From the NCBI RefSeq assembly GCF_020616335.1, contig NZ_CP085051.1, positions 1 through 64,000 of the forward strand: a stretch of DNA of 64,000 nucleotides, in the 5' to 3' direction. Each line of letters starts with the position of its first letter. The stretch's first letter is position 1. Source of the DNA: Corynebacterium uberis. GTDB lineage: Bacteria; Actinomycetota; Actinomycetes; Mycobacteriales; Mycobacteriaceae. Below the pieces are notes generated by a model that worked only from the letters and a program-made list of their open reading frames with translations, searched no databases and had not been told where the DNA came from. Below are positions 1,768 through 48,716 of the stretch, piece after piece. A program made the translations under genes and the position numbers.

Positions 1768-1846
1768 TTCGAACATGTCGTAACCTGCCGCGGAAACTAA
1801 ATTCTGACCTGCGAAAACGCCGGCGCCGAAAAATCCGTGCAGACAT
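1768..1846 (+). repeat. TTCGAA-bounded intergenic repeat, copy 1
   Basis: Starts TTCGAACATGTCGTAA, contains the internal direct repeat CCTGCCGCGGAAA / CCTGCGAAAA, and ends GTGCAGACAT. Same family and orientation as copies at 1953, 10266, 10452, 24924, 25101, 25264, 39009, 39471, 39657, 43751, 43947 and 44143; the copy at 48631 is inverted. The right-hand TTCGAA terminus is not retained here. It lies between dnaA and the first DnaA-box module. Confidence 0.9.
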
Positions 1847-1952
1847 CAGATGACCGCATGACCGCAGTGCCGCACGTTGTGCTGGGTGCGGCGGCCGGGG
1901 CGGCGTCGATATGCGGCAACCCGGCACAACAGCCGCCGCGCAGTGCCAGATA

Positions 1953-2031
1953 TTCGAACATGTCGTAACCTGCTGCGGAAACTATTTTCTGACCTGCGGA
2001 AACGCCGCCCCCGGAAAATCCGTGCAGACAT
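1953..2031 (+). repeat. TTCGAA-bounded intergenic repeat, copy 2
   Basis: Second copy, 185 bp after copy 1, in the same orientation. The DNA between the copies (about 1847-1952) and the DNA after copy 2 (about 2032-2104) resemble each other, both running through a GACCGCATGA...GTGCCGCACGTT...GGGGCGGCGTCGATA block, so the repeating unit is about 185 bp and not only the 79-bp core. Confidence 0.9.
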
Positions 2032-2146
2032 CAGACGACCGCATGATCACAGTGCCGCACGTTACGCACGGTGCGCAGCCCCGGGGCGGCGTCGATAAGC
2101 AGAAAAGCGACCGCGCGCCGTGGCCGACCGTGACCGGTGAAAACAG

Positions 2147-2200
2147 TTATCCACAGTCTCCACAGGTTTGTCCACAACTGTGTAATTACACAAATGTGAC
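2147..2200 (+). promoter_or_regulatory. DnaA-box module A (upstream copy)
   Basis: Contains a perfect DnaA box TTATCCACA at 2147-2155 and TTGTCCACA at 2168-2176, then an AT-rich palindromic stretch TGTAATTACA. The same arrangement and nearly the same bases recur at 3923-3975. By location between dnaA and dnaN this is part of, or derived from, the origin region. Confidence 0.8.
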
Positions 2201-2258
2201 TACATGTTGCACGTCGCCAACGTGGCTCCTGCACTACGAAGAAATGCGCGCCCACAAC

Positions 2259-2963
2259 TCACCGCGAAACCTCCTGTGCACTGCGCGCACCCGCAGGTGG
2301 AACGCCAATTTCTGCGATGCTGTGGCCGGCGCAGTGCACCCGGGTAACTGCCGCTGCGCGCACTCGCGACAGAGCGAACCAGCGGATGGCGTTGCGCATG
2401 CGACACCACGCGACGAGGTACCAGCACCCGCCGGTGGCGGCAAAGATGATCGGCTCGACGTCGCGGCGGGATTCTTCGCCGGCGGCGGTGGTGTATTCGA
2501 TGCGTGCTACGCGCTGATCGGTCATCGCTTGTTCCAGCGCGGAGCGGATCACGCGGGGGCATGCCGGGCCGGGGTCGACCCAGACTCGGTGCGCTAGTTG
2601 TTCGGCCTGCCTGCGGGTGTGGGGGTCGAGGGCGGCCAGTATTGTGGCGGCCCCTGCCGCGGCGAGGTCGGCGTAGGGGGCGTTGGCGGCTGCTGTCACC
2701 GCCGCTACCAGGGCCATCGCTTGGGCGGGTGTGAGCCGGATCGGGGGTAGTTCGGCGCCTGGTACCAGGACGTATCCGCCTCCGGGTCCGGGCCGCGACC
2801 AGATGGGTAGGCCTGCGGTTTCTAGGGCGGCGATGTCGCGTTTGATGGTGCGCACGGATACCTCGAAACGCTGGGCGAGCTGTTCGGCGGTCATTCCGTA
2901 GGTGCCGCGGCGGCGAAGGGCTTCTGACATCGCGTGGAGTCGTTCGGATCGCTTCACACCCAT
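2259..2963 (-). CDS. WYL-domain transcriptional regulator (DeoR-like HTH)
   Basis: A 234-residue regulator. The N-terminus has a winged HTH (about residues 1-60; TAEQLAQRFEVSVRTIKRDI), followed by a linker and a C-terminal WYL-type sensor domain with the pattern RIEYTTAAGEESRRDVEPI and WYLVAWCR. WYL regulators sense small ligands or nucleic acid and usually control adjacent genes; here the divergent hydrolase 67 bp away is the obvious candidate target. I chose the ATG at 2963, which begins MGVKRSERLHAM, because the 44 residues upstream (a Cys/Leu/Trp-rich run) do not look like protein. It is transcribed against dnaA and dnaN and sits inside the dnaA-dnaN interval, which is atypical for the genus. 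Confidence 0.85.
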   Translation of the reverse strand: MGVKRSERLHAMSEALRRRGTYGMTAEQLAQRFEVSVRTIKRDIAALETAGLPIWSRPGPGGGYVLVPGAELPPIRLTPAQAMALVAAVTAAANAPYADLAAAGAATILAALDPHTRRQAEQLAHRVWVDPGPACPRVIRSALEQAMTDQRVARIEYTTAAGEESRRDVEPIIFAATGGCWYLVAWCRMRNAIRWFALSRVRAAAVTRVHCAGHSIAEIGVPPAGARSAQEVSR

Positions 2964-3030
2964 ACCGTGCCATAATTCATGCCATAAATAGTGACATACC
3001 GCTGTCCACCGTGTCTGGCACCATCGCGCT

Positions 3031-3876
3031 ATGACTTCCCACAGGCACGCACACAAGCACACGCACAAGCACACGCACAGACCCCCAGCGCTCATCCTTG
3101 TTGCTGGTCATTGGCTCGGCGGGTGGGCATGGCAGCAGGTTGTCGATCACCTCACCAACGCCGGCCTGCAGGGCGTTGCGCTGACCTTGCCTGGCCTCGA
3201 CGCCGCCGATCCGGCGCGGGCAACCAGGACGTTGGCCGAGCAGGCCGACGCCATCGCCGAGGTGGCCGCGCACCTTGCCGCCGAAAACATCGAGAACACC
3301 GAGAACACCGAAAACGCCGCGAGCGCCAAGCCGATCCTGGTGGCCCATAGCGGTGCGAACGGCCCGGCGAGCATCGCCCTGGATCGCCGCCCTGATCTTT
3401 TCGGCCGGGTCGTGTGGGTGGATTCCGGCCCTGTCTCGCCGGGCGGCGTCTTCGATCCGACGTTTCCCGATTCCGCTGAGCAGCTAGCCCTGCCCGCTTT
3501 CGACGTCTTAAGCACGCGCGCCAGCCTCGCCGGGCTCTCCGCCGCTGATCTGGAGCGTTTTCGCCGCCACGCCGTCCCCGAGCCGGGTCCTGTGATTCGC
3601 GGGGTCGTTGAATTGCACAATCCCGCCCGCCGGCACGTGCCCAGCACGCTGGTGTGCTGCTCGATTTCCGGCCGCCAGCTCATGGCCATGGCGCATGCGG
3701 GTCATCCCATGTTTGCCGAGGTCACCACCCTGACCGACCTGACCATCGTGGACCTGCCAACGGGTCACTGGCCGATGTGGAGCCGTCCCCGCGACCTGGC
3801 ACGCCTGCTTATCGACGCCGCCGTGCCCACCCCCGCACCCTCCAGCACCGCGAGCACGCCGCCCCCGGGCCTGTGA
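3031..3876 (+). CDS. Alpha/beta-hydrolase with His-rich N-terminus
   Basis: A 281-residue alpha/beta-hydrolase fold protein resembling the salicylate-esterase/EstC-type group (ALILVAGHWLGGWAWQQV near the start). The nucleophile elbow is AHSGANG with Ser107; the catalytic His is probably in LPTGHWPMW near the C-terminus. The exact substrate cannot be read from sequence. Residues 3-17 form a His/Lys/Thr run (HRHAHKHTHKHTHR) encoded by a short tandem DNA repeat, and about residue 86-96 there is a second repeat-encoded run (ENIENTENTEN). Both are probably expanded microsatellites; the His run might bind metal. It is divergent from the WYL regulator and is flanked downstream by the second DnaA-box module. 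Confidence 0.8.
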   Translation: MTSHRHAHKHTHKHTHRPPALILVAGHWLGGWAWQQVVDHLTNAGLQGVALTLPGLDAADPARATRTLAEQADAIAEVAAHLAAENIENTENTENAASAKPILVAHSGANGPASIALDRRPDLFGRVVWVDSGPVSPGGVFDPTFPDSAEQLALPAFDVLSTRASLAGLSAADLERFRRHAVPEPGPVIRGVVELHNPARRHVPSTLVCCSISGRQLMAMAHAGHPMFAEVTTLTDLTIVDLPTGHWPMWSRPRDLARLLIDAAVPTPAPSSTASTPPPGL

Positions 3877-3922
3877 CCTGTCTGGTGCAGGGTAACGCGA
3901 ATCCTGACCAGGCAGATCGCGG

Positions 3923-3975
3923 TTATCCACACTTTCCACAGGGTTGTCCACAGACGTGTAATTACAAGAATGTAA
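3923..3975 (+). promoter_or_regulatory. DnaA-box module B (downstream copy)
   Basis: TTATCCACA at 3923-3931 and TTGTCCACA at 3944-3952, followed by TGTAATTACA. It matches module A at 2147-2200 at most positions, including spacing. The pair frames the WYL regulator/hydrolase insertion. Confidence 0.8.
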
Positions 3976-4129
3976 CTCAGTGTTCTTACTCTCAAAAACG
4001 GCGTCATCCGCGCGCGGCGGGCCGCCCCGCAGCCGCGCAACGCACCCCCGCACTCCCCGAACCCAGGGCTCCTGTGACCGCCTCTAGCTACGAAAGAAAA
4101 TAACAAAACCCCAGGTCAGCCCTGTGGAG

Positions 4130-4360
4130 GGTGCTGTGAGACACAACGGTTGGATGGTGGACAGCCTGTGGACAACTCGACAAGCCCACGAGTTATCCAC
4201 AACCCCCCGATGTTGTCCACCGGTTGTCCACACTCCATCCACACGACGAATCGCCGAGCCGAGCAGCATCGATACCCCCTGCTCCACAGAGTGCACAGGA
4301 CTTACTGCCGTTACTAAAAATTTTCCTGAACTTAACTAAGAAAGACAGGGCGTGTGGACA
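4130..4360 (+). other. oriC: Probable replication origin, DnaA-box cluster (oriC)
   Basis: This gene-free stretch before dnaN holds DnaA boxes on both strands: TGTGGACAA 4167-4175, TTATCCACA 4193-4201, TTGTCCACC 4213-4221, TTGTCCACA 4224-4232, and a weaker TGTGGACAG near 4353. Beside them is an AT-rich run (about 4311-4345, ACTAAAAATTTTCCTGAACTT) that could be the unwinding element. Location between dnaA and dnaN is the standard actinobacterial one. Together with the module at 3923 it forms the best origin candidate in the window. Confidence 0.85.
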
Positions 4361-4612
4361 GGTTGAACGCGACGTCGCTAAGCAACGAACACGAAGTGAG
4401 CCGATCCGAGCGCCTGCGGGCGCCCCGGTGACCGGCGAATCACACAACTTGGCAAACCCGTAGGCTGTGCCGGTACCTTGGAGTTGTTATTTGATCCACG
4501 TCCGTGGCGGGCAGCGGTGACCGCGCAGCCGCGCCAGTGTGTGGGTTGCGCACCGTGGGTTGTGTTATTTGGTCAGTTAGTTACCGTTTTCGGCGCGAGG
4601 AGCTTGAAACAC

Positions 4613-5800
4613 ATGGAGTCAGGGCACATCTCTTTCCGGGTTGCCAAGGATGACCTGGGCGATGCGGTTGCGTGGGTGGCCCGCAACCTCCCCACAAAAG
4701 TTGCGCAGCCGGTGCTGCGCGCCATGCTCATCACGGCCGACGATGAGGGCCTAGAAATCGCCGGCTTTGACTACGAGGTCTCCACCAAAGTTCGGCTGTC
4801 CGCCCAGGTCAGCCAGCCCGGACGCATCGCCGTAGCCGGCAAACTCATCGCCGAGATTTCCAACACCCTGCCAAACAAGGACGTGGAGATCCGCGCCGAC
4901 GGCTCCGTGGCCGTCATGGTGTGTGGTTCCTCCCGCTTTGAGCTACCCATGATCCCGCTGGATGACTACCCGCAACTTCCCACACTGCCCGAGGTCACCG
5001 GCACCATCGACCCGAAGCTGTTTACCCGGGCTGTCACCCAGGTAGCCGTGGCCGCCGGCCGGGATGACACCCTGCCCATGCTCACCGGCGTGCACATGGA
5101 GGTTTCCGGAAGCAACGTCGAACTGGCGGCCACGGACCGTTTCCGCCTGGCGCTGCGCACCTTCGAGTGGAATCCCGCTTCCCCAGACGTGTCAGCCAAC
5201 CTGCTCATTCCGGCAAAGACGCTGCTGGAAAACGCGCGCACGCTGGACCCGCAGACTTCTGATCCGATTGACATTGCGGTGGGTACCGGCGACCAGATTG
5301 GCCGCGAAGGACTTTTTGGTGTTCATACCGATAATCGGGAAACCACCACCCGCATGCTCGACGCGGAATTCCCCAACATCAAGCCGCTGCTGCCTAAAGT
5401 GCACACCTCTGTGGCAACGGTAGAAATCGCGCCCCTTTTGGAAGCCATCCGCCGTGTCTCGCTGATGACGGAACGCAACGCGCAAATTCGCATGCAGTTT
5501 TCAGAAGGACAAGTCATCCTGTCCGCCGGTGGTTCGGATTCCGGCCACGCGGAAGAACCCCTGCCCTGTGCTTTCACGGGTGCAGATGAACTCCTCATCG
5601 CCTTTAATCCCAGCTATTTGAAGGACGGCCTGGGTGTCATTGACACCGACCGGGTGGTCTTTGGGTTCACCGAGCCCTCCCGCCCGGCCATCCTGGTGCC
5701 CGAACCCGATGAGCTGCCGGAGGCCAACGCGGACGGGACGTTCCCAACGCCGCAGACGGACTTCACCTACCTGCTCATGCCGGTGCGACTTCCGGGCTAA
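4613..5800 (+). CDS. dnaN: DNA polymerase III sliding clamp, beta subunit
   Basis: The ring-shaped clamp tethers Pol III to DNA. The 395-residue product starts MESGHISFRVAKDDL and shows three repeated clamp folds, ending TYLLMPVRLPG, the usual C-terminal segment of the family. The frame is open further upstream to about 4478, but the ATG at 4613 is preceded by GAGGAG at 4598-4603 and gives the family-typical N-terminus. It is followed by recF after 225 bp; that gap carries short repeats of ACCTGGG/GGCTAACC with hairpin potential but no T-run. Confidence 0.97.
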   Translation: MESGHISFRVAKDDLGDAVAWVARNLPTKVAQPVLRAMLITADDEGLEIAGFDYEVSTKVRLSAQVSQPGRIAVAGKLIAEISNTLPNKDVEIRADGSVAVMVCGSSRFELPMIPLDDYPQLPTLPEVTGTIDPKLFTRAVTQVAVAAGRDDTLPMLTGVHMEVSGSNVELAATDRFRLALRTFEWNPASPDVSANLLIPAKTLLENARTLDPQTSDPIDIAVGTGDQIGREGLFGVHTDNRETTTRMLDAEFPNIKPLLPKVHTSVATVEIAPLLEAIRRVSLMTERNAQIRMQFSEGQVILSAGGSDSGHAEEPLPCAFTGADELLIAFNPSYLKDGLGVIDTDRVVFGFTEPSRPAILVPEPDELPEANADGTFPTPQTDFTYLLMPVRLPG

Positions 5801-6025
5801 CCAGGGCCCACCCAGGCGAACCCAGGGGCTCACCTGGGGCTAACCCTGACCCGCAAGAGCTCAGGCCTCACCTGGGCTAACCAGCTCAATCAGGGGGTGC
5901 GCGGGGCGCAGGCCAGCGGATTCCCTGCGGAGTGGAGAAAACAGCAGCTAGGTGCCCTGATCGCGGCCGTACCCACAGTCGCGCACGGGACCTATGAGGA
6001 GACCCACGAGGAGAGGTGTTCTGGG

Positions 6026-7234
6026 TTGTATGTCAGCCACTTATCGCTGCGGGACTACCGGTCCTGGGCGCAGCTGAGCATCGACCTGGAGCCGGGGGTG
6101 ACCCTGTTTGTTGGCCGCAATGGCTTTGGCAAAACAAATATTGTTGAGGCCTTGGGGTATGTGGCGCATTTGAGTTCGCACCGGGTGTCGTCGGATGCGC
6201 CTTTGGTGCGTGAATCCGCCCCGAATGCGCGGGTGTCTGCCACGGCTATTAATCAGGGCCGCGAGCTGACCTCGCACGTGTTAATTAAGCCGCATGGGGC
6301 AAATCAGGCGCAGATTAATAGGACGCGTTTGCGTTCTGTTCGTGAGGTGTTGGGGGTGGTGCGCACGGTGTTGTTTGCGCCGGAGGATTTGGCGTTGGTG
6401 CGTGGGGAGCCGGAACAGCGGCGTCGTTATGTTGATGACATTATTGCTATGAAGTGGCCGCGTTTGGCGGGGGTGAAGGCTGATTATGACAAGATTGTGC
6501 GGCAGCGCAACGCGTTATTAAAAACCGCTTCTGGCGCGCTGCGTCGTGGTTATGATTCGGAGTCCGGCGCGGATGCGCTGGCCACGTTGGATGCCTGGGA
6601 TGGGCGTTTGGCGGCACTGGGTGCCCAGGTGATTGTGGCGCGCAGGACGCTCATTGATGCGCTTCGTCCGCACGTTGAGCAGGCGTATGCGGCGTTGGCG
6701 CCGGAGTCGCGCCCGGCGGGTATTGCCTATCGTTCCAGCGTGGAGGGGGAGGATTGTCGGGATGTTGCGGAGGTGGAGGCGCAGCTGCTGGCGGGGCTGG
6801 GTGCTGCGCGTCCGCGGGAGATTGAGCGGGGGTTGAGCCTGGTGGGCCCGCATCGTGATGATGTGGAGATCACCCTGGGCACCCAGCCGGCTAAGGGTTT
6901 TGCTTCGCATGGGGAGACGTGGTCGTGCGCGATTGCGTTGCGTTTTGGGGAGTTGGAGTTGCTGCGGGAGCAGGGCTCGGATCCGGTGCTCATTTTGGAT
7001 GATGTCTTCGCGGAGCTGGATGCGCGCCGCCGGGAGAAGTTGGTGGCGCTGGCTACGAGCGTGGAGCAGGTGCTCATCACTGCGGCGGTGGATGAGGATT
7101 TGCCGGAGAACTTGGAGGACAAGATCATCGCCCGGCATGTGGTGACGGTGGCTGATACGCCGTCGGGCCGGGTGTCGGTGCTCGGGGAGCAGGCGCCTGA
7201 GCCCGGCGCCACGGGGGATGGCCAGGATGACTGA
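6026..7234 (+). CDS. recF: DNA replication and repair protein RecF
   Basis: RecF is an SMC-like ATPase that helps load RecA at single-strand gaps with RecO and RecR. The 402-residue product has Walker [10 protein letters not shown] near residue 30, a signature region [12 protein letters not shown], and Walker [14 protein letters not shown] near residue 325. I chose the TTG at 6026, giving [14 protein letters not shown], the expected N-terminus, with GAGGAGAGG about 9 bases upstream; no ATG or GTG fits as well. Its stop overlaps the start of the DUF721 gene, so the two are translationally coupled. Confidence 0.95.
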
Positions 7235-7883
7235 CCAGTCCGACCCGATTGACCAGGCGTTTGCCGCGATGCGGGCGGCGGCGAAGCGGCGCGGCGGCAC
7301 GGTGCCGCGGCTGGGTAGTAAGCAGGGCAGCCAGCGTCGGAAGCGCTCGGAGGGGCAGCTGTTTGCCGCGCTTTCCGACGCCCCCTCTGCCGCGCCGTCC
7401 GCACCCATCTCCGGCACTGCTGTCACGCCTGGCGTGACCATCCCTGGGGTGCAGGTGCCTGCCGGTTCTCGTCGGCGCCGGGGACGGGGGATGCCCACCG
7501 GCCGTGACGGGCGCAGGATTCCGCGCAGTAGGGACGTCGATAAGCTGGGTGCGATCCTGGGTGCGGAGATTTCGCGGCGCGGCTGGGGGCGCGGCATTGC
7601 CGGCGGGTGGGTTGCCGGGCATTGGGAGGAGCTGGTTGGGCCGAAAATCGCTGCGCACGCGACGGTGGAGATGATTAAGGGCACGACGCTGTTTATCACC
7701 TGCGATTCCACAGCGTGGGCGACGAATTTGCGGCTCATGCAGCGCCAGATTTTGCAGACCATTAGGGGCAAGGTCGGCGCGGATGTGATCACGGAGTTGA
7801 AGATTTTTGGGCCGAAGGCGCCGTCGTGGCGCAAGGGGCCGCTCCACGTGAAGGGCCGCGGACCGCGCGATACCTACGGCTAG
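7227..7883 (+). CDS. DUF721 family protein (DciA-like)
   Basis: A 218-residue protein in the recF-gyrB slot of actinobacteria. The C-terminal half (about 95-205) has the DUF721 pattern: [34 protein letters not shown] then [23 protein letters not shown] and [11 protein letters not shown]. Related DciA proteins in many bacteria act with the replicative helicase; that role here is inferred from family and location. The N-terminal half is Arg/Ala-rich and low-complexity. The start ATG at 7227 overlaps the recF stop (ATGACTGA). An in-frame ATG at 7218 is possible. Confidence 0.85.
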
Positions 7884-7986
7884 GATCCCGCCAGCCGTCG
7901 GCGACGTACCGGCCGCTGCGCTAGGCGCGACGTGAAGGGGCCATCAGCGTTCCAAAGCCCCTGCCGCGTGGGGGGTTACGTACGTG

Positions 7987-7992
7987 TAGAAT
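7987..7992 (+). promoter_or_regulatory. Probable -10 element of gyrB
   Basis: TAGAAT preceded by GTG, 45 bp upstream of the gyrB start, within the only gap before gyrB. The leader then carries GAGGAG at 8020-8025. No clear -35 element is visible. Confidence 0.5.
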
Positions 7993-7994
7993 GA

Positions 7995-10106
<2,112 letters not shown>

Positions 10107-10126
10107 CTGGCTGGCTACTGCTGAAC

Positions 10127-10158
10127 ACACCCCGGGCCGCGCGGCTCGGGGTGTTTTT
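10127..10158 (+). terminator. Rho-independent terminator of gyrB
   Basis: ACACCCCGGGCC...CGGGGTGT stem (10127-10154) running into TTTTT, 20 bp after the gyrB stop. Confidence 0.9.
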
Positions 10159-10265: not shown

Positions 10266-10344
10266 TTCGAACATGTCGTAACCTGCCGCGGAAACTAATT
10301 TCTGACCTGCGGAAATGCCGGCGCCGGAAAATCCGTGCAGACAT
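10266..10344 (+). repeat. TTCGAA-bounded intergenic repeat, copy 3
   Basis: TTCGAACATGTCGTAACCTG start, ends GTGCAGACAT. Downstream of the gyrB terminator and of a GCTTATCGACGCC motif at about 10186. Confidence 0.9.
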
Positions 10345-10451: not shown

Positions 10452-10530
10452 TTCGAACATGTCGTAACCTGCCGCGGAAACTAAATTCTGACCTGCGGAA
10501 ACGTCGCCCCCGGAAAATCCGTGCAGACAT
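10452..10530 (+). repeat. TTCGAA-bounded intergenic repeat, copy 4
   Basis: 186 bp after copy 3 in the same orientation. The linker between them repeats the GACGAC...GTTACGCACGGTGCGGCGC...GGGGCGGCGTCGATATGCGGCA block seen after copies 1 and 2. Confidence 0.9.
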
Positions 10531-11731: not shown

Positions 11732-11740
11732 GGCGCACAT

Positions 11741-24923: not shown

Positions 24924-25003
24924 ATTCGAACATGTCGTAACCTGCCGTGGAAACTAAATTCTGACCTGCGGAAATACGGCGGCCAAAAAATCCGTGAAGA
25001 CAT
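24924..25003 (+). repeat. TTCGAA-bounded intergenic repeat, copy 5
   Basis: First of three head-to-tail copies after the sugar ABC operon. It contains the GGCGGCCAAAAAATCCGTGAAGACAT right half, the version shared by copies 5-7. Confidence 0.9.
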
Positions 25004-25100: not shown

Positions 25101-25179
25101 TTCGAACATGTCGTAACCTGCCGCGGAAACTAAATTCTGACCTGCGGAAACGCGGCGGCCAAAAAATCCGTGAAGACAT
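25101..25179 (+). repeat. TTCGAA-bounded intergenic repeat, copy 6
   Basis: 177 bp after copy 5, nearly identical to it in the core, with a GGGGCGGCGTCGATATGCGGCA block in the linker upstream. Confidence 0.9.
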
Positions 25180-25263: not shown

Positions 25264-25342
25264 TTCGAACATGTCGTAACCTGCCGCGGAAACTAAATTC
25301 TGACCTGCGGAAATGCGGCGGCCAAAAAATCCGTGAAGACAT
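25264..25342 (+). repeat. TTCGAA-bounded intergenic repeat, copy 7
   Basis: 163 bp after copy 6. The core is nearly identical to copies 5 and 6; the linker is shorter and less conserved. Confidence 0.9.
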
Positions 25343-38774: not shown

Positions 38775-38859
38775 GGGCGAGTGGCGGAATTGGCAGACGC
38801 GCTGGCTTCAGGTGCCAGTGTCCTTTACGGACGTGGGGGTTCAAGTCCCCCTTCGCCCA
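38775..38859 (+). tRNA. tRNA-Leu (CAG anticodon)
   Basis: Acceptor GGGCGAG pairs with TTCGCCC; class II tRNA with a long variable arm (TGTCCTTTACGGACG). Anticodon loop CTTCAGG carries CAG; T arm GGTTCAAGTCC. No encoded CCA. 85 bases. Confidence 0.96.
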
Positions 38860-38866
38860 CAGTTTG

Positions 38867-39008: not shown

Positions 39009-39087
39009 TTCGAACATGTCGTAAGCTGCCGCGGAAAGTAAATTCTGACCTGCGGAAACGCGGCGGCCGAAAAAACGATGAAGACAT
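39009..39087 (+). repeat. TTCGAA-bounded intergenic repeat, copy 8
   Basis: Single copy between tRNA-Leu and the CHY zinc-finger gene, with AACGATGAAGACAT at the right end. It differs from the consensus at GTAAGCTGCC and GGAAAGTAA. Confidence 0.88.
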
Positions 39088-39470: not shown

Positions 39471-39549
39471 TTCGAACATGTCGTAACCTGCCGCGGCAAG
39501 TAAATTCTGACCTGCGGAAACGCCGGAGCCGAAAAATCGATGAAGACAT
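39471..39549 (+). repeat. TTCGAA-bounded intergenic repeat, copy 9
   Basis: Starts 29 bp after the CHY gene stop. Right half CGGAGCCGAAAAATCGATGAAGACAT. Confidence 0.9.
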
Positions 39550-39656: not shown

Positions 39657-39735
39657 TTCGAACATGTCGTAACCTGCCGCGGAAACTAAATTCTGACCTG
39701 CGGAAACGCCGGCGCCGGAAAATCGATGAAGACAT
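39657..39735 (+). repeat. TTCGAA-bounded intergenic repeat, copy 10
   Basis: 186 bp after copy 9; the linker again contains GACGACCGCATGACTGCGGTG and CCGGGGCGGCGTCGAGAAGCG, as after copies 2 and 4. Confidence 0.9.
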
Positions 39736-39922: not shown

Positions 39923-40366
39923 ATGAACATTCCTTCGATACTGTTGCGCGGTTTTACCGGCGCGTTCATTTTGCAGTCTGGCCTGGGGAAGCGCGGTATG
40001 GACGTGGAGGGCTATAAGGGGCTGCAGGAGATGGCGGCGACGGGTATCCCGAAGCTGGGCGAGTTGGATCCGGAGGATTTTGGCGCGTTCATCACGTACA
40101 GCGAAATTGGTATTGGTTCGGCGTTGTTGTGCCCGGTGGTGCCTAATAAGTTGGCGGGTGCGGCGTTGGGGGCGTTCAGTGCTGGGATGTTGAGCATGTA
40201 TTTCGGTAATCCGGCGATGACTCAGGATGATGGTATTCGGCCTTCGCAGGAGGGGACGCCGCTGGCTAAGGATGGTTTTATGGCCGCGATTGCTGCTGCG
40301 TTGTTCTTCTTGCCGGGGAAGAAGAAGTCGCTGGGCGATAAGCTGAAGGCGAAGCTGGGTAAGTAG
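39923..40366 (+). CDS. DoxX-like membrane protein
   Basis: A 147-residue protein resembling the DoxX/SURF4-like family, with hydrophobic segments near residues 5-20, about 58-100 ([20 protein letters not shown]) and about 118-135 ([14 protein letters not shown]), and a basic Lys-rich C-terminus. Start [20 protein letters not shown] follows AGAGGA. Corynebacterial homologues are often annotated as hypothetical membrane proteins; no redox motif is visible. Confidence 0.75.
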
Positions 40367-40381
40367 GTTTTTGCAGGTCAG

Positions 40382-40414
40382 ACCGGGCGCGTGGGGGTGT
40401 GCGCCCGGTTTTTT
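40382..40414 (+). terminator. Terminator of the DoxX-like gene
   Basis: ACCGGGCGC (from 40382) pairs with GCGCCCGGT and continues as TTTTT. Confidence 0.9.
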
Positions 40415-40481
40415 GCTTGTCGACGCCCCCTCCTCCCGCATGTGAGCATCCGCCTGCGGGTAACTTCTGTTCGTCAATCAC

Positions 40482-40494
40482 TGAACACCGTTCA
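40482..40494. promoter_or_regulatory. Candidate BioQ operator upstream of bioB
   Basis: TGAAC-ACC-GTTCA, a perfect 13-bp palindrome 66 bp before bioB. In C. glutamicum the TetR-type biotin regulator BioQ binds a TGAAC-N3-GTTAC motif (from memory); this is one base from it and fully symmetric. It would make bioB biotin-responsive. Confidence 0.7.
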
Positions 40495-40560
40495 AGGCGG
40501 CGCGCTAAGTTAAGAGGCGACCAAGGACGTTTCCTTACACACTCCGGAGAGGAACACCCC

Positions 40561-41556
40561 ATGAACGCCGTATTGGACCGCGCCCGCACGCACGCCCTGG
40601 ACCAGGGCATAGGCATTAACCAAGCAGATATCCAGGCAATTCTGGAGCTGCCCGAACAAGAAGTAGCCCAGGCCCTCGACCTGGCCCACCAGGTGCGGCT
40701 GCGCTGGTGTGGCGACATGGTGGAGGTAGAGGGCATTATTTCGCTGAAGACTGGCGGGTGCCCCGAGGATTGTCATTTTTGTTCCCAGTCGGGATTGTTT
40801 GAGTCGCCGGTGCGGGCGGTGCGCCTGGATATCGATGAGCTGGTTGAGGCCGCCAAACACACCGCGAAGACGGGGGCGACGGAGTTTTGCATTGTCGCCG
40901 CGGTCAAGGGCCCCAATGAGGCGCTGATGCGCCAGGTCATTGAGGCGATCGGGGTCATCGAGAGGGAGGTAGACATTAACGTCTCGGTGTCCATCGGCAT
41001 CCTCACCCAGGAGCAGGCGGACCGGCTCAAGGAGGCCGGCGCGCACCGCTATAACCACAACATTGAAACCGCTCGCTCGTTCTTTCCCCAGGTGGTGACC
41101 ACCCACGCGTGGGAGGACCGCGTGGCTACTTTGGAGCGGGTGCGCCGGGCGGGCATGGAGGTGTGCTGCGGCGGGATCATCGGCATGGGGGAGACCATTG
41201 CCCAGCGCGCGGAGTTTGTGGCTCAGCTCGCGCAGCTCGCCCCGGAGGAGGTGCCGCTGAATTTCCTGGACCCGCGCCCCGGCACGCCTTTTGCGCACCG
41301 GCCGGTCATCCAGCCCCCGGAGGCCCTGCGCGCCATTGCTGCCGCCCGGCTGGCCATGCCGCGCGCCGTCATCCGCTACGCGGGCGGGCGCGAGTTGGCC
41401 CTGGGCCCGGAGGGTGCGGAAAAGGGCCTGCTCGGCGGCATTAACGCCCTGATCGTGGGCAATTACCTGACCACCCTGGGCCGGCCGATGGAAACGGACA
41501 TTGACATGCTGGGCCGCCTGCATCTGCCCATCCAGGCGCTGAGCAAGGTGGTCTAA
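40561..41556 (+). CDS. bioB: Biotin synthase
   Basis: A 331-residue radical-SAM enzyme that inserts sulfur into dethiobiotin. The radical-SAM Cys triad is CPEDCHFC (Cys67, Cys71, Cys74). Further family motifs: [38 protein letters not shown] and [10 protein letters not shown]. The ATG at 40561 has GGAGAGG upstream. The stop overlaps the start of bsaP by one base (TAATG), so both are co-translated. No bioA, bioD or bioF lies nearby. Confidence 0.97.
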
Positions 41557-41840
41557 TGAGCCCGGTGCGCTTTGACCCCTTCACCGGCGCGGAGCTGGCT
41601 TCGCTGGCTTCGTCTTCTTCGCTTTCCGACGCCCCCGCCGCACGTCCCCTGCACCCCGCCGCCGTCGCCGGCCTGGACGTGCCCCGGTTCTGCCAGCACT
41701 GCGGCCGCAAGCTGGTGGTCAAGATCAACCCGTACGGCTGGGAGGCCACCTGCTCGCGCCACGGCAGTGTGGCCGACAGCATCACGGGCGTGCCCAAAGC
41801 TAGTACACCATCTTCTCCACCACCGACTGGTAGGCCTTGA
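41556..41840 (+). CDS. bsaP: Biotin synthase auxiliary protein BsaP
   Basis: A 94-residue small protein with a Cys-rich core ([18 protein letters not shown] then CSRHG). Actinobacterial BsaP proteins form an iron-sulfur accessory protein needed by the bioB of mycobacteria; coupling to bioB supports this name. The C-terminal end overlaps the 3' end of the opposite-strand peptidase gene by 41 bp, an unusual tail-to-tail overlap. The last about 14 residues are likely dispensable. Confidence 0.85.
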
Positions 41841-43167
41841 GGGTCAGCTTCAGGTCGGCCAGGTAGAGCTTTTCATCATGCGAGTGCAGCTCGGCGTTGA
41901 CCTGCGCCAGATCGCGGGCGCGCTCGTGCAGGGCAAAGCCGTAGCCCACCCCGCCGAGGCGGCGGGCAAAGCGCAGGTCAGACCCGCCGGTGGCGTGGAC
42001 GGGCACGATCGCGGCGTCGGGGAAGTGCTCCTTGATCGCGCTCGACATGGCCTCCCACAGGGGCCCGGATGCGGGGGATTCGGTGGCGGGTTCGCTGATC
42101 AGGCGCTCGATGCGCACCGCGTCGGCCAGGGGGCCCAGGGCATCGCGCAGCATGTCATCCACGTCGTCTTGGGTCACGCCTGGCAGCGGCCGGATGTCCA
42201 TCTCGAGGTAGGCGTGCGAGGGCAGCACGTTGATGGGCCCGCCGGCGCGCAGCACGGTCTGCGCGATGGTGGTGTGGGAGGCGGCGTGCGCGTAGGGCGC
42301 CAGCGTGCCCAGCGTCGTGTAGTCCTGCCCGGTGCGCGCGGCGTCGGCAGCCTGCGGGGCAAGCCCGAAGGCGTTAACAAAACCGTGCCACACATCTGAG
42401 TCGGCGACCGGGGACTGGCACGCCGCAATAGCCTGCGCGACCTGCCCAATCAGCGCGATGGCAGACTCGCGCCCATAGGGTGCAGAACCATGCCCGGCGT
42501 CCCCGGTGACGTGCAAGCGGCGCTGCGCCGCGCCCTTCTCGCCGGTGTAGATGACTATGGCATCCGAGCCGTCGGCGGTAGGCAGATGGGAGCCGCCAGT
42601 CTCTGACAGACAGTTGCGCCAGGAGAACGCGTCCGGGTGGTGTTCTGCCAGCCAGCGCGCCCCCAGGCCGCCGCGGGCCTCCTCGTCGGCGCAGGCCACG
42701 AAGGTCAGGTCCGCCTTCGGCGGGGTGCCGGCCTGGGCGCGCCGGGCGGCCTGGCGAGTCACCGCGGCCATGGTGGCGGTGATAAAGAGCATGTCTATCG
42801 CGCCGCGCCCGTAGAGGATGCCCTCGGGGGTGATCTCTGCGGCAAACGGGTCGTGGGTCCACTTATCGACGTCGACGGGGACCACGTCGGTGTGGCCGAG
42901 CAGAGTCAGCGGCTCGGCGCCGGAAGCGCCGGAGCCGCCATCGCCGGCGCCGCCAGCGGCATCAGAGCCCCCAGAACCGCGCACCGTGAACGCTACCGAC
43001 ACCCGCCCGGGCTCCGGCTCGAAGCGCTGCACCTCCACGCCGGTGCCGGCAAAGAAGCGCTCCAGGGTCTGCGCGTTGCGTACCTCTTGCCCGGAGCCGG
43101 GGGTGAAGTCGTTGACGCACGCGTTGCGGATCATCTCGCGGAGCAGTTCTACGGTCTCTTCGTACAT
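41800..43167 (-). CDS. M20 family metallopeptidase (dipeptidase-like)
   Basis: A 455-residue zinc peptidase/deacylase. Metal ligands are in [15 protein letters not shown] (His), YGRGAIDM (Asp) and [17 protein letters not shown] (Glu), with a later His in AGHGSAPYG. The lid domain lies at about 195-320. I place the start at the ATG 43167 ([17 protein letters not shown]); a -10-like TATACC is 9 bases upstream, in the gap shared with the divergent gene. Substrate is unclear: dipeptides, acyl-amino acids and related compounds are all possible. Confidence 0.88.
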
Positions 43168-43192
43168 GTGCCCCAGGGTATAGCCTTGGGTC
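43168..43192. promoter_or_regulatory. 25-bp bidirectional promoter
   Basis: The whole gap between two divergent start codons. GGTATAGCC carries TATAGC on the plus strand (43179-43184, 8 bases before the ATG at 43193) and TATACC on the minus strand (complement of 43177-43182, 9 bases before the ATG at 43167). The two -10 elements overlap and both mRNAs should be leaderless. Confidence 0.65.
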
Positions 43193-43696
43193 ATGTTCGC
43201 TTCGCTGATTGAGGATCTTGCTTCCCGCCCCGCCGCGAGCCTGGACGCCCTGCCGGCTTTGAGCCTGGAGCAGTTGGGCGCGCACCCGGCGGGTCACGCC
43301 AATTCGATTGCCTGGCTGTTGTGGCACACGGGCCGCGAGCTGGATATGCAGACCGCGGAGCTGACCGGTGGGGAGGAGATCTGGACCGCCCGGGGTTTCC
43401 GGGAGCGCATGGACCTGGGGGAGCTTGGCGATTCGATGGGCTACGGCCACACCCCGGAGCAGGCCGCGCAGATCGTGTTTGCGCAGGCCAGCGACCAGCA
43501 GGTGGCGGCGGACTACATCCGCGCCTGTGCGGAGGCGCTGGGGGAGTATGCGCGGGGTTTGAGCCCGCAGCAGTGGGAAGAAATCATCGACGACAGCTGG
43601 GATCCGCCGGTCAGCCGCGGGGTGCGCATTGTTTCTGTGCTTGTCGACGCCCTCGAGCACCTCGCCCAGGCAGCCTACGCCGCCGCGGTGGTCTAG
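43193..43696 (+). CDS. DinB/YfiT-like putative metalloenzyme
   Basis: A 167-residue four-helix protein of the DinB/DUF664 group. Conserved His in GHANSIAWLLWHTGRELDM, the typical N-terminal segment, and a late His in DALEHLAQAAYAAAVV near the C-terminus. Members of this fold include thiol-dependent detoxification enzymes such as mycothiol transferases; role here is inferred from fold only. It shares a bidirectional promoter with the M20 peptidase gene. Confidence 0.78.
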   Translation: MFASLIEDLASRPAASLDALPALSLEQLGAHPAGHANSIAWLLWHTGRELDMQTAELTGGEEIWTARGFRERMDLGELGDSMGYGHTPEQAAQIVFAQASDQQVAADYIRACAEALGEYARGLSPQQWEEIIDDSWDPPVSRGVRIVSVLVDALEHLAQAAYAAAVV

Positions 43697-43750
43697 GAGG
43701 CTAAAGTCCGCCGCCGCGCTGCCGCCGCACGCCGCGCGAGCAGCGTTGCA

Positions 43751-43829
43751 TTCGAACATGTCGTAACCTGCCGCGGAAACTAATTTCTGACCTGCGGAAA
43801 CGCCGGACCGGGAAAATCCGTGAAGACAT
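43751..43829 (+). repeat. TTCGAA-bounded intergenic repeat, copy 11
   Basis: First of three head-to-tail copies in the 600-bp gap after the DinB-like gene; right half CGGACCGGGAAAATCCGTGAAGACAT. Confidence 0.9.
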
Positions 43830-43946
43830 CAGACGACCTAATATCTGCGGTGCTGTGCGTGACGCTGCGTGCGGTGCTCCGGGTCGGCGTGTGCGGTAGG
43901 CGAGGCGTCGTAATGTAGGAAGCGGGAGACTCTGCGGTTGCGACTA

Positions 43947-44025
43947 TTCGAACATGTCGTAACCTGCCGCGGAAACTAAATTCTGACCTGCGGAAATGCC
44001 GGACCGGGAAAATCCGTGAAGACAT
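43947..44025 (+). repeat. TTCGAA-bounded intergenic repeat, copy 12
   Basis: 196 bp after copy 11 and nearly identical in the core; the linker (ATCTGCGGTGCTGTGCGTGA...GGCGTGTGCGG) is also duplicated. Confidence 0.9.
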
Positions 44026-44142
44026 CAGATGACCTAATGTCTGCGGTGCTGTGCGTGACGCTGCGTGCGGTGCTCTGGGGCGGCGTGTGCGGGAGGCGGG
44101 GCGTCGTTAAGTATGCGACAGGCGACTCTGCGGTTGCGACTA

Positions 44143-44228
44143 TTCGAACATGTCGTAACCTGCCGCGGAAACTAAATTCTGACCTGCGCAAATGCGGCGG
44201 CGAAAAAATCGATGAAGACATTTTCGAA
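44143..44228 (+). repeat. TTCGAA-bounded intergenic repeat, copy 13 (full length)
   Basis: A full 86-bp copy, 196 bp after copy 12. It begins TTCGAACATGTCGTAA and ends TGAAGACATTTTCGAA, so the two ends form an imperfect inverted repeat (12 of 16). This copy and the one at 48631 define the element's boundaries. Confidence 0.92.
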
Positions 44229-44298
44229 TGCGGCGCCGCCGCCGCACCGCCGCCGCGCGGGAACAACCGCCGCACCGCCGCGGCGTCGATAAGCAGTG

Positions 44299-45792
44299 CT
44301 AGCGCACGTCGACGAACTTCTTGAGCACCCAGCCGCGGGCGGCGAAGATGATCAGGCCGAGGACGATCGCCCCGATGCCGGTGGTGAGGAAGAACGTCCG
44401 TTCGGCGGCGGCGCCGGCGGTCATGGCGGCCTCGTATTTGCCGCCGAGGATGCCGGACAGGGAGCTGCCCATGGACACGCCCATGAGCCAGGCTGCGAAC
44501 ATGCGGGATTTGAATGCTTCGGGGGCGACCTTGGTGGCCAGCGAGTTGCCGATCGGGGAGAGTAACAGTTCGCCCATGGTGAACAGGAAGAGCAGCAGCA
44601 CCATCATCAGCAGCGGGGTGGACTTGGGGCCGCCGCCGACGTAGGGGAGGAACAGGAACAGGGAGGCGCCGATGATGCACATGGCGACGGCGAATTTGAC
44701 GGGGCTGGACCATTGGCGTTCGGCAAGCTTGGTCCATGCGGCGGCGAAGATGCCGGAGAAGATGACAATGAACAGCGGGTTGATGGATTGGATGAAGTTG
44801 GGGCTCAGGGTGCCTTCGACGAATCCCAGGTTGATGTCCAGGTTGACGCGCTTGTCGGTGTAGAGCGCCAGGACGGTGAACTGGGATTGGAAGATGGCAA
44901 AGAAGAGGACGCAGCCGACCATGAGCGGGATGAAGCCGAGGACGCGGGAGCGTTCGACGGCGCTGGTCAGCTCGGAGGTGCACATCTGGTAGATCATGAC
45001 GATGGACACGGCGAGTGCGATGAGCGTCATCACCCAGGGCAGCTTGTCCAGCGGCAGGATGCCGGAGGTGAGCACGCCGACGGCGACGGCGATGATCGCC
45101 AGGGCGCCGATGATCCAGGCCATGTAGTGGCTGCGGGGCAGCGGGGACGGCACGGTTGCGCCCGCGACGCCGATGGTGGTCTTGCGCATGAGCACGTATT
45201 GCGTCAGGCCGAGCGCCATGCCGATGGCGGCTAGACCAAAGCCGCGGTGGAAGTTTTCAAAGCCCCACGCCCAGCCGGTGAGCAGGGGGCCGAACAGGGC
45301 GCCAATGTTGACGGCCATGTAGAAGATGGAGAAGCCGGAGTCGCGCTTGGGGTCCTCGCGGGTGTACAGGTCGCCCAGGACCACCTGGGCTGCGGTTTTG
45401 ACGCCGCCGGAGCCCAGGCCCACGCACACCAGGCCCAGGGTCAGGCCAAAGAAGCCGGGCAGCAGCGCCAGGGCGATGTGGCCGACCATGACCAGGATGG
45501 CGGAGTAGAACAGGGTGCGTTCGGGGCCGAGGATGCGGTCGGAGATGAAGCTGGCGACCAGGGCCATCATGTAGACGAAGCCGCCGTAGGCGCCGACGAT
45601 GGCTAGCGCGGTGCCTTCGTTGACGCCTAGTCCGCCTTCGCCGACGGAGTAGTAGAGGTAGAAGGCGAGCAGGGACTGCATGCCGTAGAAGCTGAAGCGC
45701 TCCCACATCTCTACGCCAAAGAGGTTGGCTAGCCCCCAGGGTTGGCCTAAGAAGGTGCGCTCGCGCGAGGGGGTCTCGGTGGGCTGTGTCAT
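44299..45792 (-). CDS. POT/PTR family proton-dependent peptide transporter
   Basis: A 497-residue membrane protein with about 14 spans of the DtpT-like oligopeptide:H+ symporter family. The N-terminal PTR2 signature is FSFYGMQSLLAFYLYYSV; the first helix carries the variant EMWERFSFYGM of the ExxER(F)xYY proton-coupling motif. The start at 45792 (MTQPTETPSRERTFLG) was chosen over 21 further upstream residues of unlikely composition. It may supply di- and tripeptides; the nearby M20 peptidase could process them, which is inference. Confidence 0.92.
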   Translation of the reverse strand: MTQPTETPSRERTFLGQPWGLANLFGVEMWERFSFYGMQSLLAFYLYYSVGEGGLGVNEGTALAIVGAYGGFVYMMALVASFISDRILGPERTLFYSAILVMVGHIALALLPGFFGLTLGLVCVGLGSGGVKTAAQVVLGDLYTREDPKRDSGFSIFYMAVNIGALFGPLLTGWAWGFENFHRGFGLAAIGMALGLTQYVLMRKTTIGVAGATVPSPLPRSHYMAWIIGALAIIAVAVGVLTSGILPLDKLPWVMTLIALAVSIVMIYQMCTSELTSAVERSRVLGFIPLMVGCVLFFAIFQSQFTVLALYTDKRVNLDINLGFVEGTLSPNFIQSINPLFIVIFSGIFAAAWTKLAERQWSSPVKFAVAMCIIGASLFLFLPYVGGGPKSTPLLMMVLLLFLFTMGELLLSPIGNSLATKVAPEAFKSRMFAAWLMGVSMGSSLSGILGGKYEAAMTAGAAAERTFFLTTGIGAIVLGLIIFAARGWVLKKFVDVR

Positions 45793-46053
45793 GGTTTGTA
45801 TTATTGGCCTTCCCCACGGTTGGTGTGCACTTCGCCGCGGCTTATGCCCCCTCACCTGCGGCAGAAGCGCAGGCAGTGCCCTATTGTGATCTGCAACACA
45901 CTAGCTGCTTATCGACGCCCCCGCGTCCCCCCGCTACCGCGCGCCCGTCGCCGTTTGGCGGGTGGGCGGGCGCCGTTTGGCCCCGGGGTGCTGCCTGTGG
46001 GCGGCGCGGGCGGGGTGGCCTGGTGCGGCCTGTTGCTCCGGCTGCGCGCGGCC

Positions 46054-47643
46054 TCAGCGCAGGATCCGCTTGCCCGCCTTGAGCAGGCTGGTCATGGTGC
46101 GCGCCTGCGCGGCGGCGCCGGTGCCGGTGAGGTTGGTGATCGGCATGAGCCGCTGCTGGGCCACCGTGCGGGTTTCGGTGTATTTGAGCAGCCCGGCGTC
46201 GCCGTGGCGGCGGCCCTGCCCGGAGCGCTTCCACCCGCCCATGGGCGCGCCGGTGGACGCCCACGCGGCGGCGAAGCCTTCGTTGATGTTCACGGTGCCG
46301 GCGTGGAGCTGCGTGGCGATGGCCCGCCCGGTGGCCGGGGCGGCCCAGACGGAGGCGTTGAGGCCGTAGTCGGTGTCATTGGCGTGGGCGATGGCCTCGT
46401 CGATGCTGGCCACGGCCTGGATATAGACCACGGGGCCGAAGACCTCCTCGCGGTGCAGGCGGGCGGTGGCGGGGACGTCGGTAAGCACTGTGGGGGCGTA
46501 GAAGGCTTCGCCGAGCTGCGGCAGGGGGCGGGCCCCGGTGAGCACGCGGGCGCCGCTGTCGATGGCGTCGCGCACCAGCTCATCGACGTGCCGGGCGTGC
46601 TCGGAGGAGATCAGCGAGCCCACCGCGGTGGTCCACTCGCGCCCCGGCCCGATGCGCAGCGCCTTGGTGGCGGCGACGAACTGCTGGGTGAACTCCGCGG
46701 CCACCTCGGCGTGGACGTAGATGCGCTCAATGGAAATGCACAATTGTCCGGTGTTGGCAAAGCAGGCAGAAATGGCGCCGGGAACGGCGCGGGCGAGGTC
46801 CGCATCCGGGGCAATAATCAGCGGGTTTTTACCGCCCAGTTCTGCGGAATAACCAATCAGGCGCCGCCCGGCGGTGGCGGCCAATTCCGCACCGGTAGCA
46901 GAAGAGCCGGTGAACATGAGGAAGTCACAGTGCTGGGCAATTGCCTGGCCCACCACTGTGCCGCGCCCGGTGACGGGGATGAACACGTCGTGCGGCACGC
47001 CGGCCTCGTAGAGCAAGTCCAGGGCCTTGAGCGCAGTCAGCGGGGTCTGGGAGTCCGGCTTGAGCACGGCGGTGTTGCCCATGGCCAGGGCGGCCAGGCC
47101 GTCAGAGACCGCCAGGGTCAGCGGGTAGTTCCAGGGGGCGATGATGCCCACCACGCCGACCGGCTCGCGCTGGATACGCGTGCGGGTCAGCAGCGGCAGG
47201 GCCGCCCCACGGATGCCGGCAGAGCGTTCCCGCAGCAGCCGACCTGCGGCATACGCGCAGTGCCGAGCGGTAATAGCCACGTCCATGACCTCCTCGAACG
47301 CGCTCATCCGGGACTTGCCGGACTCGTCCTGGATGAGGTCTAACAATTCGTCTTGGCGGTCTAAGACGAGGTCGTGGTAGCGCAGCAGGATCTCCCGGCG
47401 CCGGCTGATGGGCAGCGCAGCCCAGGCGGGTTGGGCGGCGCGCGCCCGGGCAAACGCAGCTTGGGTGTCTTCCTGGGTGTGAGCGGGCACCGTGCCCAGG
47501 ACCGCGCCGCTGGTCGGGGAGGTCACGGTGATGGCGTCGGGGCTTTCCGGGGCGGCTTCCGGGGCGGCTTCCGGGGCGGCGGCTGCGCTTTCCGCGGCGC
47601 CGCCGGCTGCTGCTGAGTTTTCTGGGCCTGCCGGGTTGGTCAT
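46054..47643 (-). CDS. Aldehyde dehydrogenase, succinate-semialdehyde type
   Basis: A 529-residue NAD(P)-dependent aldehyde dehydrogenase resembling GabD-type enzymes. Catalytic Glu in YSAELGGKNPLII, nucleophile Cys in FANTGQLCISIERIY, cofactor region GVVGIIAPWNYPL and MFTGSSATG. Residues about 2-36 are an Ala/Pro/Glu stretch encoded in part by 12-bp tandem repeats (complement of about 47539-47580), probably disordered. A gabD paralogue followed by an SDR occurs at a similar place in C. glutamicum, as I recall. Succinate semialdehyde as substrate is likely but not proven. Confidence 0.88.
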   Translation of the reverse strand: MTNPAGPENSAAAGGAAESAAAAPEAAPEAAPESPDAITVTSPTSGAVLGTVPAHTQEDTQAAFARARAAQPAWAALPISRRREILLRYHDLVLDRQDELLDLIQDESGKSRMSAFEEVMDVAITARHCAYAAGRLLRERSAGIRGAALPLLTRTRIQREPVGVVGIIAPWNYPLTLAVSDGLAALAMGNTAVLKPDSQTPLTALKALDLLYEAGVPHDVFIPVTGRGTVVGQAIAQHCDFLMFTGSSATGAELAATAGRRLIGYSAELGGKNPLIIAPDADLARAVPGAISACFANTGQLCISIERIYVHAEVAAEFTQQFVAATKALRIGPGREWTTAVGSLISSEHARHVDELVRDAIDSGARVLTGARPLPQLGEAFYAPTVLTDVPATARLHREEVFGPVVYIQAVASIDEAIAHANDTDYGLNASVWAAPATGRAIATQLHAGTVNINEGFAAAWASTGAPMGGWKRSGQGRRHGDAGLLKYTETRTVAQQRLMPITNLTGTGAAAQARTMTSLLKAGKRILR

Positions 47644-47765
47644 GGGTGCTTCTTCCTTCGGCGATGTGGTGCTGTGTACTCTACCTGAGCAGATACTTTT
47701 GGGCAGCTAACTTGTTGCTGGCTGAACTGTGCCGTATTTTTTTGGACGTTTGAGGGAGACCAACT

Positions 47766-48518
47766 ATGCCGAACACCATCTTCATCTCCGGGGCCGCCCA
47801 GGGCATTGGGGCTGCTACCGCGCAGCGTTTTCTTCAGGCGGGCTGGAAGGTGGGCGCTTACGATATCGCCCCCGTGGATTACGGCCACCCGAACCTGCGC
47901 GCGGGCTACCTCGACGTCACGGATGCCGATTCCTGGGACGCCGCCCTGGCCCAATTCGCCGACTTCACCGGCGGCACATTGACCGCCCTGGACAACAACG
48001 CCGGCATCATCACCGACGGCCCGCTGGCCCACGCCGACCCGCATTCCGTCGCCGCGGTCATCGATGTCAACTGCCGCGGCGTGGCCTTAGGTGCGCGCGC
48101 CGCCCACCCCTACCTGCGCGCCACCAAGGGCGCCCAGCTGGTCAACATCTGCTCGGCATCTGCGATCTACGGCCAGCGCGACGTGCTGGTCTATAGCGCA
48201 ACCAAGTTCTTTGTCAAAGGCTTCACGGAGGGCCTGCGCCTGGAGTGGCGCAAGGACGGTATCCGCGTCGTCGACGTCATGCCCCTGTGGGCCAAGACCG
48301 GCCTGGCGCAGGTGGAGGCCAAGTCCACGCGCACCCTGGGCGTGCACATCACCCCGGAGCTGGTCGCCGATACTGTGTTCAGCGCCGTCACCCCGCGCGG
48401 GCCCTGGCAGCGCGGCAAGATCCACTACGGAGTCTCCGCGCCGGACAAGCTGCTGTACTGGGCGCGCTCCGTCAGCCCGGACCGGATCTCGGAGCTGGTC
48501 AACCGCTGGATTGTCTAA
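47766..48518 (+). CDS. Short-chain dehydrogenase/reductase
   Basis: A 250-residue classical SDR. Cofactor motif SGAAQGIGAATA (TGxxxGxG variant with Ser first), NNAG (LDNNAGII), catalytic Ser in NICSASAIYG and the active-site pair YSATK. The N-terminus lacks the Arg pattern of NADPH enzymes and has Asp in AYDIAPV, suggesting NAD. The start has GAGGGAGA upstream. It is divergent from the aldehyde dehydrogenase gene; substrate unknown. Confidence 0.9.
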   Translation: MPNTIFISGAAQGIGAATAQRFLQAGWKVGAYDIAPVDYGHPNLRAGYLDVTDADSWDAALAQFADFTGGTLTALDNNAGIITDGPLAHADPHSVAAVIDVNCRGVALGARAAHPYLRATKGAQLVNICSASAIYGQRDVLVYSATKFFVKGFTEGLRLEWRKDGIRVVDVMPLWAKTGLAQVEAKSTRTLGVHITPELVADTVFSAVTPRGPWQRGKIHYGVSAPDKLLYWARSVSPDRISELVNRWIV

Positions 48519-48630
48519 TTTTTTGCTTATCGACGCCCCCGGCTGCGCGGTTCGCGCGCCGCCCAGCCCGGCGCCGCTCGCCGCGCCCAGCCCCGCACTA
48601 CTCGCCGCGCGCCGCCCAGCGCCGCGCGCA

Positions 48631-48716
48631 TTCGAAAATGTCTTCATCGATTTTTTCGCCGCCGCGTTTCCGCAGGTCAGAATTTAGTTTCCGCGGCAGG
48701 TGACGACATGTTCGAA
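48631..48716 (-). repeat. TTCGAA-bounded intergenic repeat, copy 14 (inverted, full length)
   Basis: The only copy in opposite orientation, 86 bp, TTCGAAAATGTCTTCATCGA at the left end and GACGACATGTTCGAA at the right. Both TTCGAA termini are intact. It lies between the SDR gene and a small membrane-protein gene, after a GCTTATCGACGCCCCC motif at about 48526. Confidence 0.92.

Follow-up and report, generated by a model that had tools for sequence, protein, structure and literature searches.

Background

In Escherichia coli, the RIB and RIP elements are bacterial interspersed mosaic elements (BIMEs) that bind IHF; they are short and intergenic, with outer repeats placed around a site for a host protein. 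IHF sites also occur at lambda attP, at cos and at the E. coli oriC. In Bacillus subtilis, the ram sites of RacA and the parS sites of ParB are multiple sites of the origin domain. Here we compare with these systems a 79-bp repeated element of Corynebacterium uberis, present in the first 64,000 bases of contig NZ_CP085051.1 (hereafter the window). The genome is a single contig of 2,533,318 bases and the window starts at dnaA.

The repeat family is real and constrained, lies on the origin side and is built round a word that is wide in actinobacteria. Our preferred reading, to which we give a probability of about 0.5, is that the 79-bp sequence has been inherited vertically and does not jump, and that it is a DNA element of the replication-origin region with several sites to which protein would bind. 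We favour it because the copies form arrays with fixed spacing, cluster near dnaA around parS, and share their core with other lineages, phages, plasmids and oriC-like DNA.

The 79-bp element in C. uberis

A sequence-only reading of the window had listed 14 copies of the element. All were found, with one start shifted by a single base (24925 for 24924). The copies, together with two occurrences of the inner 15-bp core word YTGACCTGCRNAAAY, are as follows.

1768..1846, plus strand: copy 1, downstream of dnaA (oriC side)
1953..2031, plus strand: copy 2, 185 bp after copy 1
10266..10344, plus strand: downstream of gyrB, convergent gap
10452..10530, plus strand: in array with the 10266 copy
24925..25003, plus strand: convergent gap
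25101..25179, plus strand: in array with the 24925 copy
25264..25342, plus strand: in array with the 24925 copy
39009..39087, plus strand: downstream of tRNA-Leu
39471..39549, plus strand: 79-bp element
39657..39735, plus strand: 79-bp element
43751..43829, plus strand: convergent gap
43947..44025, plus strand: in array with the 43751 copy
44143..44228, plus strand: 86-bp form, TTCGAA at both ends
48631..48716, minus strand: 86-bp form, TTCGAA at both ends, inverted
43983..43997, plus strand: core word, example inside copy 43947
40367..40381, minus strand: core word outside the elements, the only such case among 33 in the genome

The family is not confined to the window, an outcome that would have refuted the sequence-only reading by its own criterion had it been observed. 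The 20-mer TTCGAACATGTCGTAACCTG, allowing up to three mismatches, has 32 matches genome-wide and none for its reversed control, and a 33rd copy without the TTCGAAC start lies at 2332975 on the minus strand, giving a whole-genome total of 33 near-identical copies at 14 loci. The copies are grouped in short arrays, their conserved blocks keep a fixed spacing, and 32 of the 33 core-word matches in C. uberis are inside them. Within the window TTCGAA occurs 29 times, against 10.4 expected.

The conserved unit is 79 bp long and free of indels in 32 of the 33 copies, the copy at 363577 being without the segment that contains the second direct repeat. The high conservation noticed from the sequence is confirmed and is uneven: 43 of the 79 columns are invariant across 32 copies, and a GC-rich patch of 11 columns (51-61) carries 114 of the 200 minority letters, a pile-up that would not be expected from a recent neutral burst. 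The inner direct repeat (CCTGCCGCGGAAAC / CCTGCGGAAAC) is likewise borne out. The description of the family as TTCGAA-bounded with terminal inverted repeats holds for the copies at 44143 and 48631, which have 12-bp inverted ends TTCGAANATGTC, and fails for the rest (2 of 33 copies), as the sequence-only reading partly stated. Intergenic placement stands for 30 copies. The other three (39471, 39657 and 2332975) lie inside weak, probably spurious open reading frames (ORFs) of a home-made gene caller, which also supplied the convergent gene pairs. The LexA (SOS) box is the full palindrome TCGAAC-N4-GTTCGA; since the element consensus holds the left half only, the suspected LexA half-site at the left end looks incidental.

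Clustering around the origin

To the right of dnaA the loci lie at +1.8, 10.3, 25, 39, 43.8, 48.7(-), 76.4(-), 90.7, 356 and 363 kb, and to the left at -691(+), -201(-), -72(-) and -65(-) kb. Ten of the 14 are no further than 101 kb from dnaA (binomial p 8e-9; Kolmogorov-Smirnov (KS) p 2e-6), and the clustering persists when loci less than 20 kb apart are merged into 8 (KS p 0.0016). At 11 of the 14 loci the element points in the direction of replication (p 0.029). The ParB parS site TGTTTCACGTGAAACA has no match in the window at up to three mismatches. Elsewhere in the genome there are five parS-like palindromes (at most two mismatches), at 2495631-2530180 or about -38 to -3 kb, and the arrays therefore flank the parS cluster on both sides.

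One explanation for conserved blocks that resemble binding sites is that they are operators of a transcription regulator such as the WYL/HTH protein whose gene, at 2259-3095 on the minus strand, adjoins copies 1 and 2. Six of the 14 loci, however, lie between convergent genes, where a promoter is not expected, compared with 20% of gene pairs (p 0.046), and the core word also turns up in other genera and on phages and plasmids, too wide a spread for one local regulator. We regard operators as an improbable explanation.

Related families in other lineages

A second family consists of 111-bp inverted-repeat elements (ATGTCCCAAAT...ATTTGGGACAT) around the same core word in six species; it was found in 5 of 10 chosen genomes (G114, G115, G081, G195 and G197) and in G131. 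Its terminal inverted repeats are at least 16 bp long. The outermost ATGTC...GACAT letters are common to the 111-bp and 79-bp units and the remainder differs. The single-contig genome G114 has 15 copies at 11 loci, clustered at the origin (KS p 5e-4) and mirror-oriented at 10 of the 11. Across species the 111-bp elements occupy orthologous places: 8 of 9 locus groups, drawn from 35 loci, contain at least two species. Pooled over 17 pairs from 8 groups, which are not independent, identity is 98% at the ends (535/544), 91% in the core (231/255), 88% in the middle (969/1100) and 66% in the flanks (3366/5100). The ends are more conserved than the flanks in all 17 ortholog pairs and the core in 15. 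The corresponding region of G232 seems to be without the G114 elements, with a shorter gap, on a reading of the match list; it is not counted as an empty site. In G067 there is a third family, again mirror-oriented. The 9 copies found lie +130, +192-193 and -318 kb away from the dnaA end, those at +192 and -318 kb in arrays.

The sequence-only reading proposed that the C. uberis elements are MITE-like (miniature inverted-repeat transposable elements) or resemble REP (repetitive extragenic palindromic) sequences and BIMEs. Under the first proposal, a MITE or other non-autonomous transposon has lost its transposase, or has one that goes unrecognised, the arrays arose by nested or local duplication, and any function came later. 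The elements are indeed short, multi-copy and mostly intergenic, two copies have the 12-bp inverted ends, the 111-bp family has longer ones, and phages and plasmids commonly carry the core word. Against this, target-site duplications are not in excess of shuffled flanks in 33 C. uberis and 15 G114 copies, and the Y1_Tnp profile of Y1/RAYT transposases is absent genome-wide (the control search was positive in 5 of 14 genomes; other transposase families were not searched genome-wide). None of the genes scanned between the two complete copies (44143 and 48631) is a transposase. The MITE-like proposal is unsupported because there are neither target duplications above shuffled flanks nor a Y1 transposase, and the matching places and conserved ends of the 111-bp family and the origin clustering of the C. 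uberis loci also speak against it; we consider it unlikely. The REP/BIME comparison fits as a DNA-binding analogy and does not extend to a RAYT (Y1) transposase or to a general palindromic fold.

A general stem is indeed not seen when the copies are folded: copy 43947 gives z 0.12 on the plus and 0.81 on the minus strand, copy 25264 gives -0.53, and the two 86-bp copies give -1.73 and -3.06, the latter for copy 48631. It is conceivable that the elements act in RNA, as terminators, attenuators or structures of 3' untranslated regions, given that copies are often downstream of genes, that copy 48631 reaches z -3.06 and that folding is very good for two type A copies of the 111-bp family (z -7.0 and -7.6). 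The two plain C. uberis copies nevertheless fold no better than shuffles, a type B copy of the 111-bp family reaches only -1.87, and Rfam matches three tRNAs in the window and nothing else. The inverted ends of several 111-bp copies carry, by eye, single-sided changes, which favours sequence rather than RNA pairing. We consider an RNA element very improbable.

Relative to replication, the core word in G114 and G067 points opposite to that in C. uberis, so that the word is unlikely to act in a simple polar way. Chi-like and polar-only readings were set aside because orientation differs between lineages and phages. Alternatively, the arrays could be polar roadblocks to the replication fork or to condensin (SMC) that flank the parS cluster. 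They do stand on both sides of parS, with mirror orientation in three lineages, and in C. glutamicum SMC is reported to accumulate beside parS in a manner that is lost when that DNA is replaced (PMC7083940). Yet the direction of the word differs between lineages. For C. glutamicum, the tie to roadblocks of SMC and to arm bridging is a lead only, and we find a roadblock quite unlikely.

The core word beyond C. uberis

We recognised the core word through a weak 20-base phage match of the 80-bp element, which has no full copy among the plasmids and phages searched. The start word of the element has one match, with 2 mismatches, among 40 other genomes. The best DnaN identity to C. uberis in our genome set is about 80%; with no close relative in the set, absence of the element elsewhere says little. 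Exact TTCGAACATGTCGTNACC has 46 matches in genome contigs, a search that may omit C. uberis itself, and 5 in viral contigs; their flanks are unlike the element and we read them as chance. No description of the core word or of the repeats was present among the listings and abstract openings of the open-access literature searched, where sequence matches came from a primer in a phiJoe phage paper (PMC5311408) and from two further papers.

The distribution of the core word is far wider than that of the element. Counting C. uberis each time, YTGACCTGCRNAAAY is present in 155 of 226 Corynebacterium genomes (reversed control 6 matches, as read from the table), TCTGACCTGCGGAAA in 26 of 242 genus genomes, and a 16-mer of TCTGACCTGCGGAAA in 57 of 298 genomes of the order (reversed control 0). 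In other Corynebacterium genomes the word may be bracketed by repeats, inverted or direct, whose sequence is quite different. Inverted matches of at least 11 surround it in 7 of 24 Corynebacterium contexts, five of which are one family, and in 3 of 30 order-level contexts there are inverted repeats. Among 72 phage places, drawn from at least 80 viral loci, 9 have inverted and 12 direct repeats, compared with 4 and 9 of 400 random places. This test was run without L213, L220, L226 and L233, AAAG-type genus matches that look like one coding gene, and without L234 (C. uberis). The first 100 kb of four relatives contain no multi-copy family around the core word; in that comparison a short palindrome forms two clusters in G236. 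G104 has one core flanked by inverted repeats, at 69.7 kb.

A 22-base form of the core matches 551 phage records; 548 of these bear actinobacterial names and 3 have no label. Among the 60 phage matches listed, 51 are within 200 bp of a genome end and 43 at 46-57 bp from it, in both orientations; the records that we inspected closely belong to four phage genera. The right end of Gordonia phage Bantam (L455) has, by eye, core-word variants in both orientations within about 500 bp. Plasmids contribute 122 matching records, at least 108 of them actinobacterial by genus name. Some core-word contexts adjoin integrase or tRNA genes and others adjoin DnaA-box-like words in oriC-like DNA (read by eye). 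In C. uberis, TTATCCACA-like words follow copy 2 at about 2140-2190, also read by eye.

A putative protein-binding element

The shared core word suggests a common DNA-binding protein rather than a jumping element. The proposal of an IHF-like role arises because the contexts of the word recall those of IHF in E. coli, namely attachment regions, phage genome ends and origin DNA. The word itself is different from and longer than an IHF site, its binding protein is putative, and integrase or tRNA neighbours are found in a minority of contexts. We envisage that a conserved actinobacterial DNA-binding protein, probably architectural and IHF-like in role, would bind the core, with the mIHF/sIHF family as a first candidate only. 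The lineage-specific outer repeats would bind a second factor, and the arrays may help to shape or anchor the origin domain.

By analogy, the element would then work like the IHF-binding BIMEs of E. coli and be placed like the ram sites of B. subtilis; both protein binding and a role in the origin domain are inferred. RIB and RIP share with it the short intergenic form and the outer repeats around a (here putative) host-protein site. The resemblance drawn is one of layout; no IHF-consensus site is known in the 79-bp element, and in contrast to RIB and RIP the outer repeats vary by lineage, the origin clustering is strong and there is no RAYT/Y1 transposase. Like ram and parS, the elements are multiple sites concentrated around the origin, but they are longer and composite, their core also occurs in phages and plasmids, and the parS palindromes of C. 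uberis are sites separate from them. As for MITEs, the likeness consists in short length, multiple copies and, in the 111-bp family, inverted ends, whereas target duplications and a Y1 transposase are missing and the 111-bp family holds matching positions across species.

Several observations weigh against a vertically kept binding element. The weakest link of the IHF comparison is that mIHF is reported to bind DNA without sequence preference (PMC3724605). Genus-wide, the bare word is biased toward the origin to a modest degree (KS p 8e-5, from 86 matches listed in 32 genomes with a dnaN position, a set that leaves out G114, G067 and others) and the bare word follows no orientation rule (48 of the 86 matches listed). 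After merging, agreement of element direction with replication in C. uberis drops to 5 of 8 loci, and origin clustering in G114, merged to 7 loci, to p 0.077; the opposite direction of the word in G114 and G067 adds to this. In 2 of the 17 ortholog pairs the flanks are better conserved than the core. Many of the phage records are close relatives, and 6 of the 122 plasmid records are gammaproteobacterial, with 8 more of genera not shown. Of 60 ORFs neighbouring the word in phages, chosen by hand among those listed and not at random, 5 match tyrosine integrase, as does 1 of 40 neighbouring ORFs in Corynebacterium, and a tRNA lies within 400 bp in 9 of 140 core-word contexts; on the same counts we dropped a reading of the core as attP only.

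Other features of the window

Besides GyrB and GyrA, the window encodes the following.

1-1668: DnaA
2259-3095, minus strand: WYL/HTH regulator gene between dnaA and dnaN, adjoining copies 1 and 2
4478-5800: DnaN
38775-38860: tRNA-Leu
59910-62897, plus strand: large SNF2-type helicase related to DISARM DrmD, scoring below the DrmD model cut-off

The dnaN match at 4478 compares with positions near 2-3 kb in many complete relatives. A defence island may surround the SNF2-type helicase at 59910-62897. The sole two TTCGAA-bounded copies (44143 and 48631) face each other, inverted and about 4.4 kb apart, with a peptide transporter, an aldehyde dehydrogenase and a short-chain dehydrogenase between them; the pair 44143-48716 is a possible inversion substrate.

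A second repeated word, the 13-mer GGCGTCGATAAGC, occurs 296 times in the C. uberis genome (reversed control 0), 0 to 130 times in each of 15 other genomes of the genus, and once in 9 genomes of other genera. In the window it has 9 exact and 24 one-mismatch matches, against 0.10 expected, in coding and intergenic DNA, and it comes after several 79-bp elements. It resembles a DNA-uptake-type word. Its positions in the window are:

435
2088
3807
10185
21128
32475
44282
45907
48525

Conclusions

We tentatively extend the proposal of a vertically kept binding element one step further, at odds clearly below even. In this extension YTGACCTGCRNAAAY would be an unrecognised site of a pan-actinobacterial DNA-bending or DNA-bridging protein. 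Phages would use the site at their genome ends and attachment regions, plasmids and oriC would use it as well, and from it Corynebacterium would build arrays in mirror orientation that evolve fast and organise the origin domain around parS. If this is true, a host architectural protein may thereby have a specific address in actinobacteria, and the site would explain what the non-coding DNA of many actinophages and plasmids has in common. The folding of the Corynebacterium origin domain would become directly testable through array deletion, and the three lineages, with a common core and little else, would be a case of fast turnover in chromosome-organising DNA.

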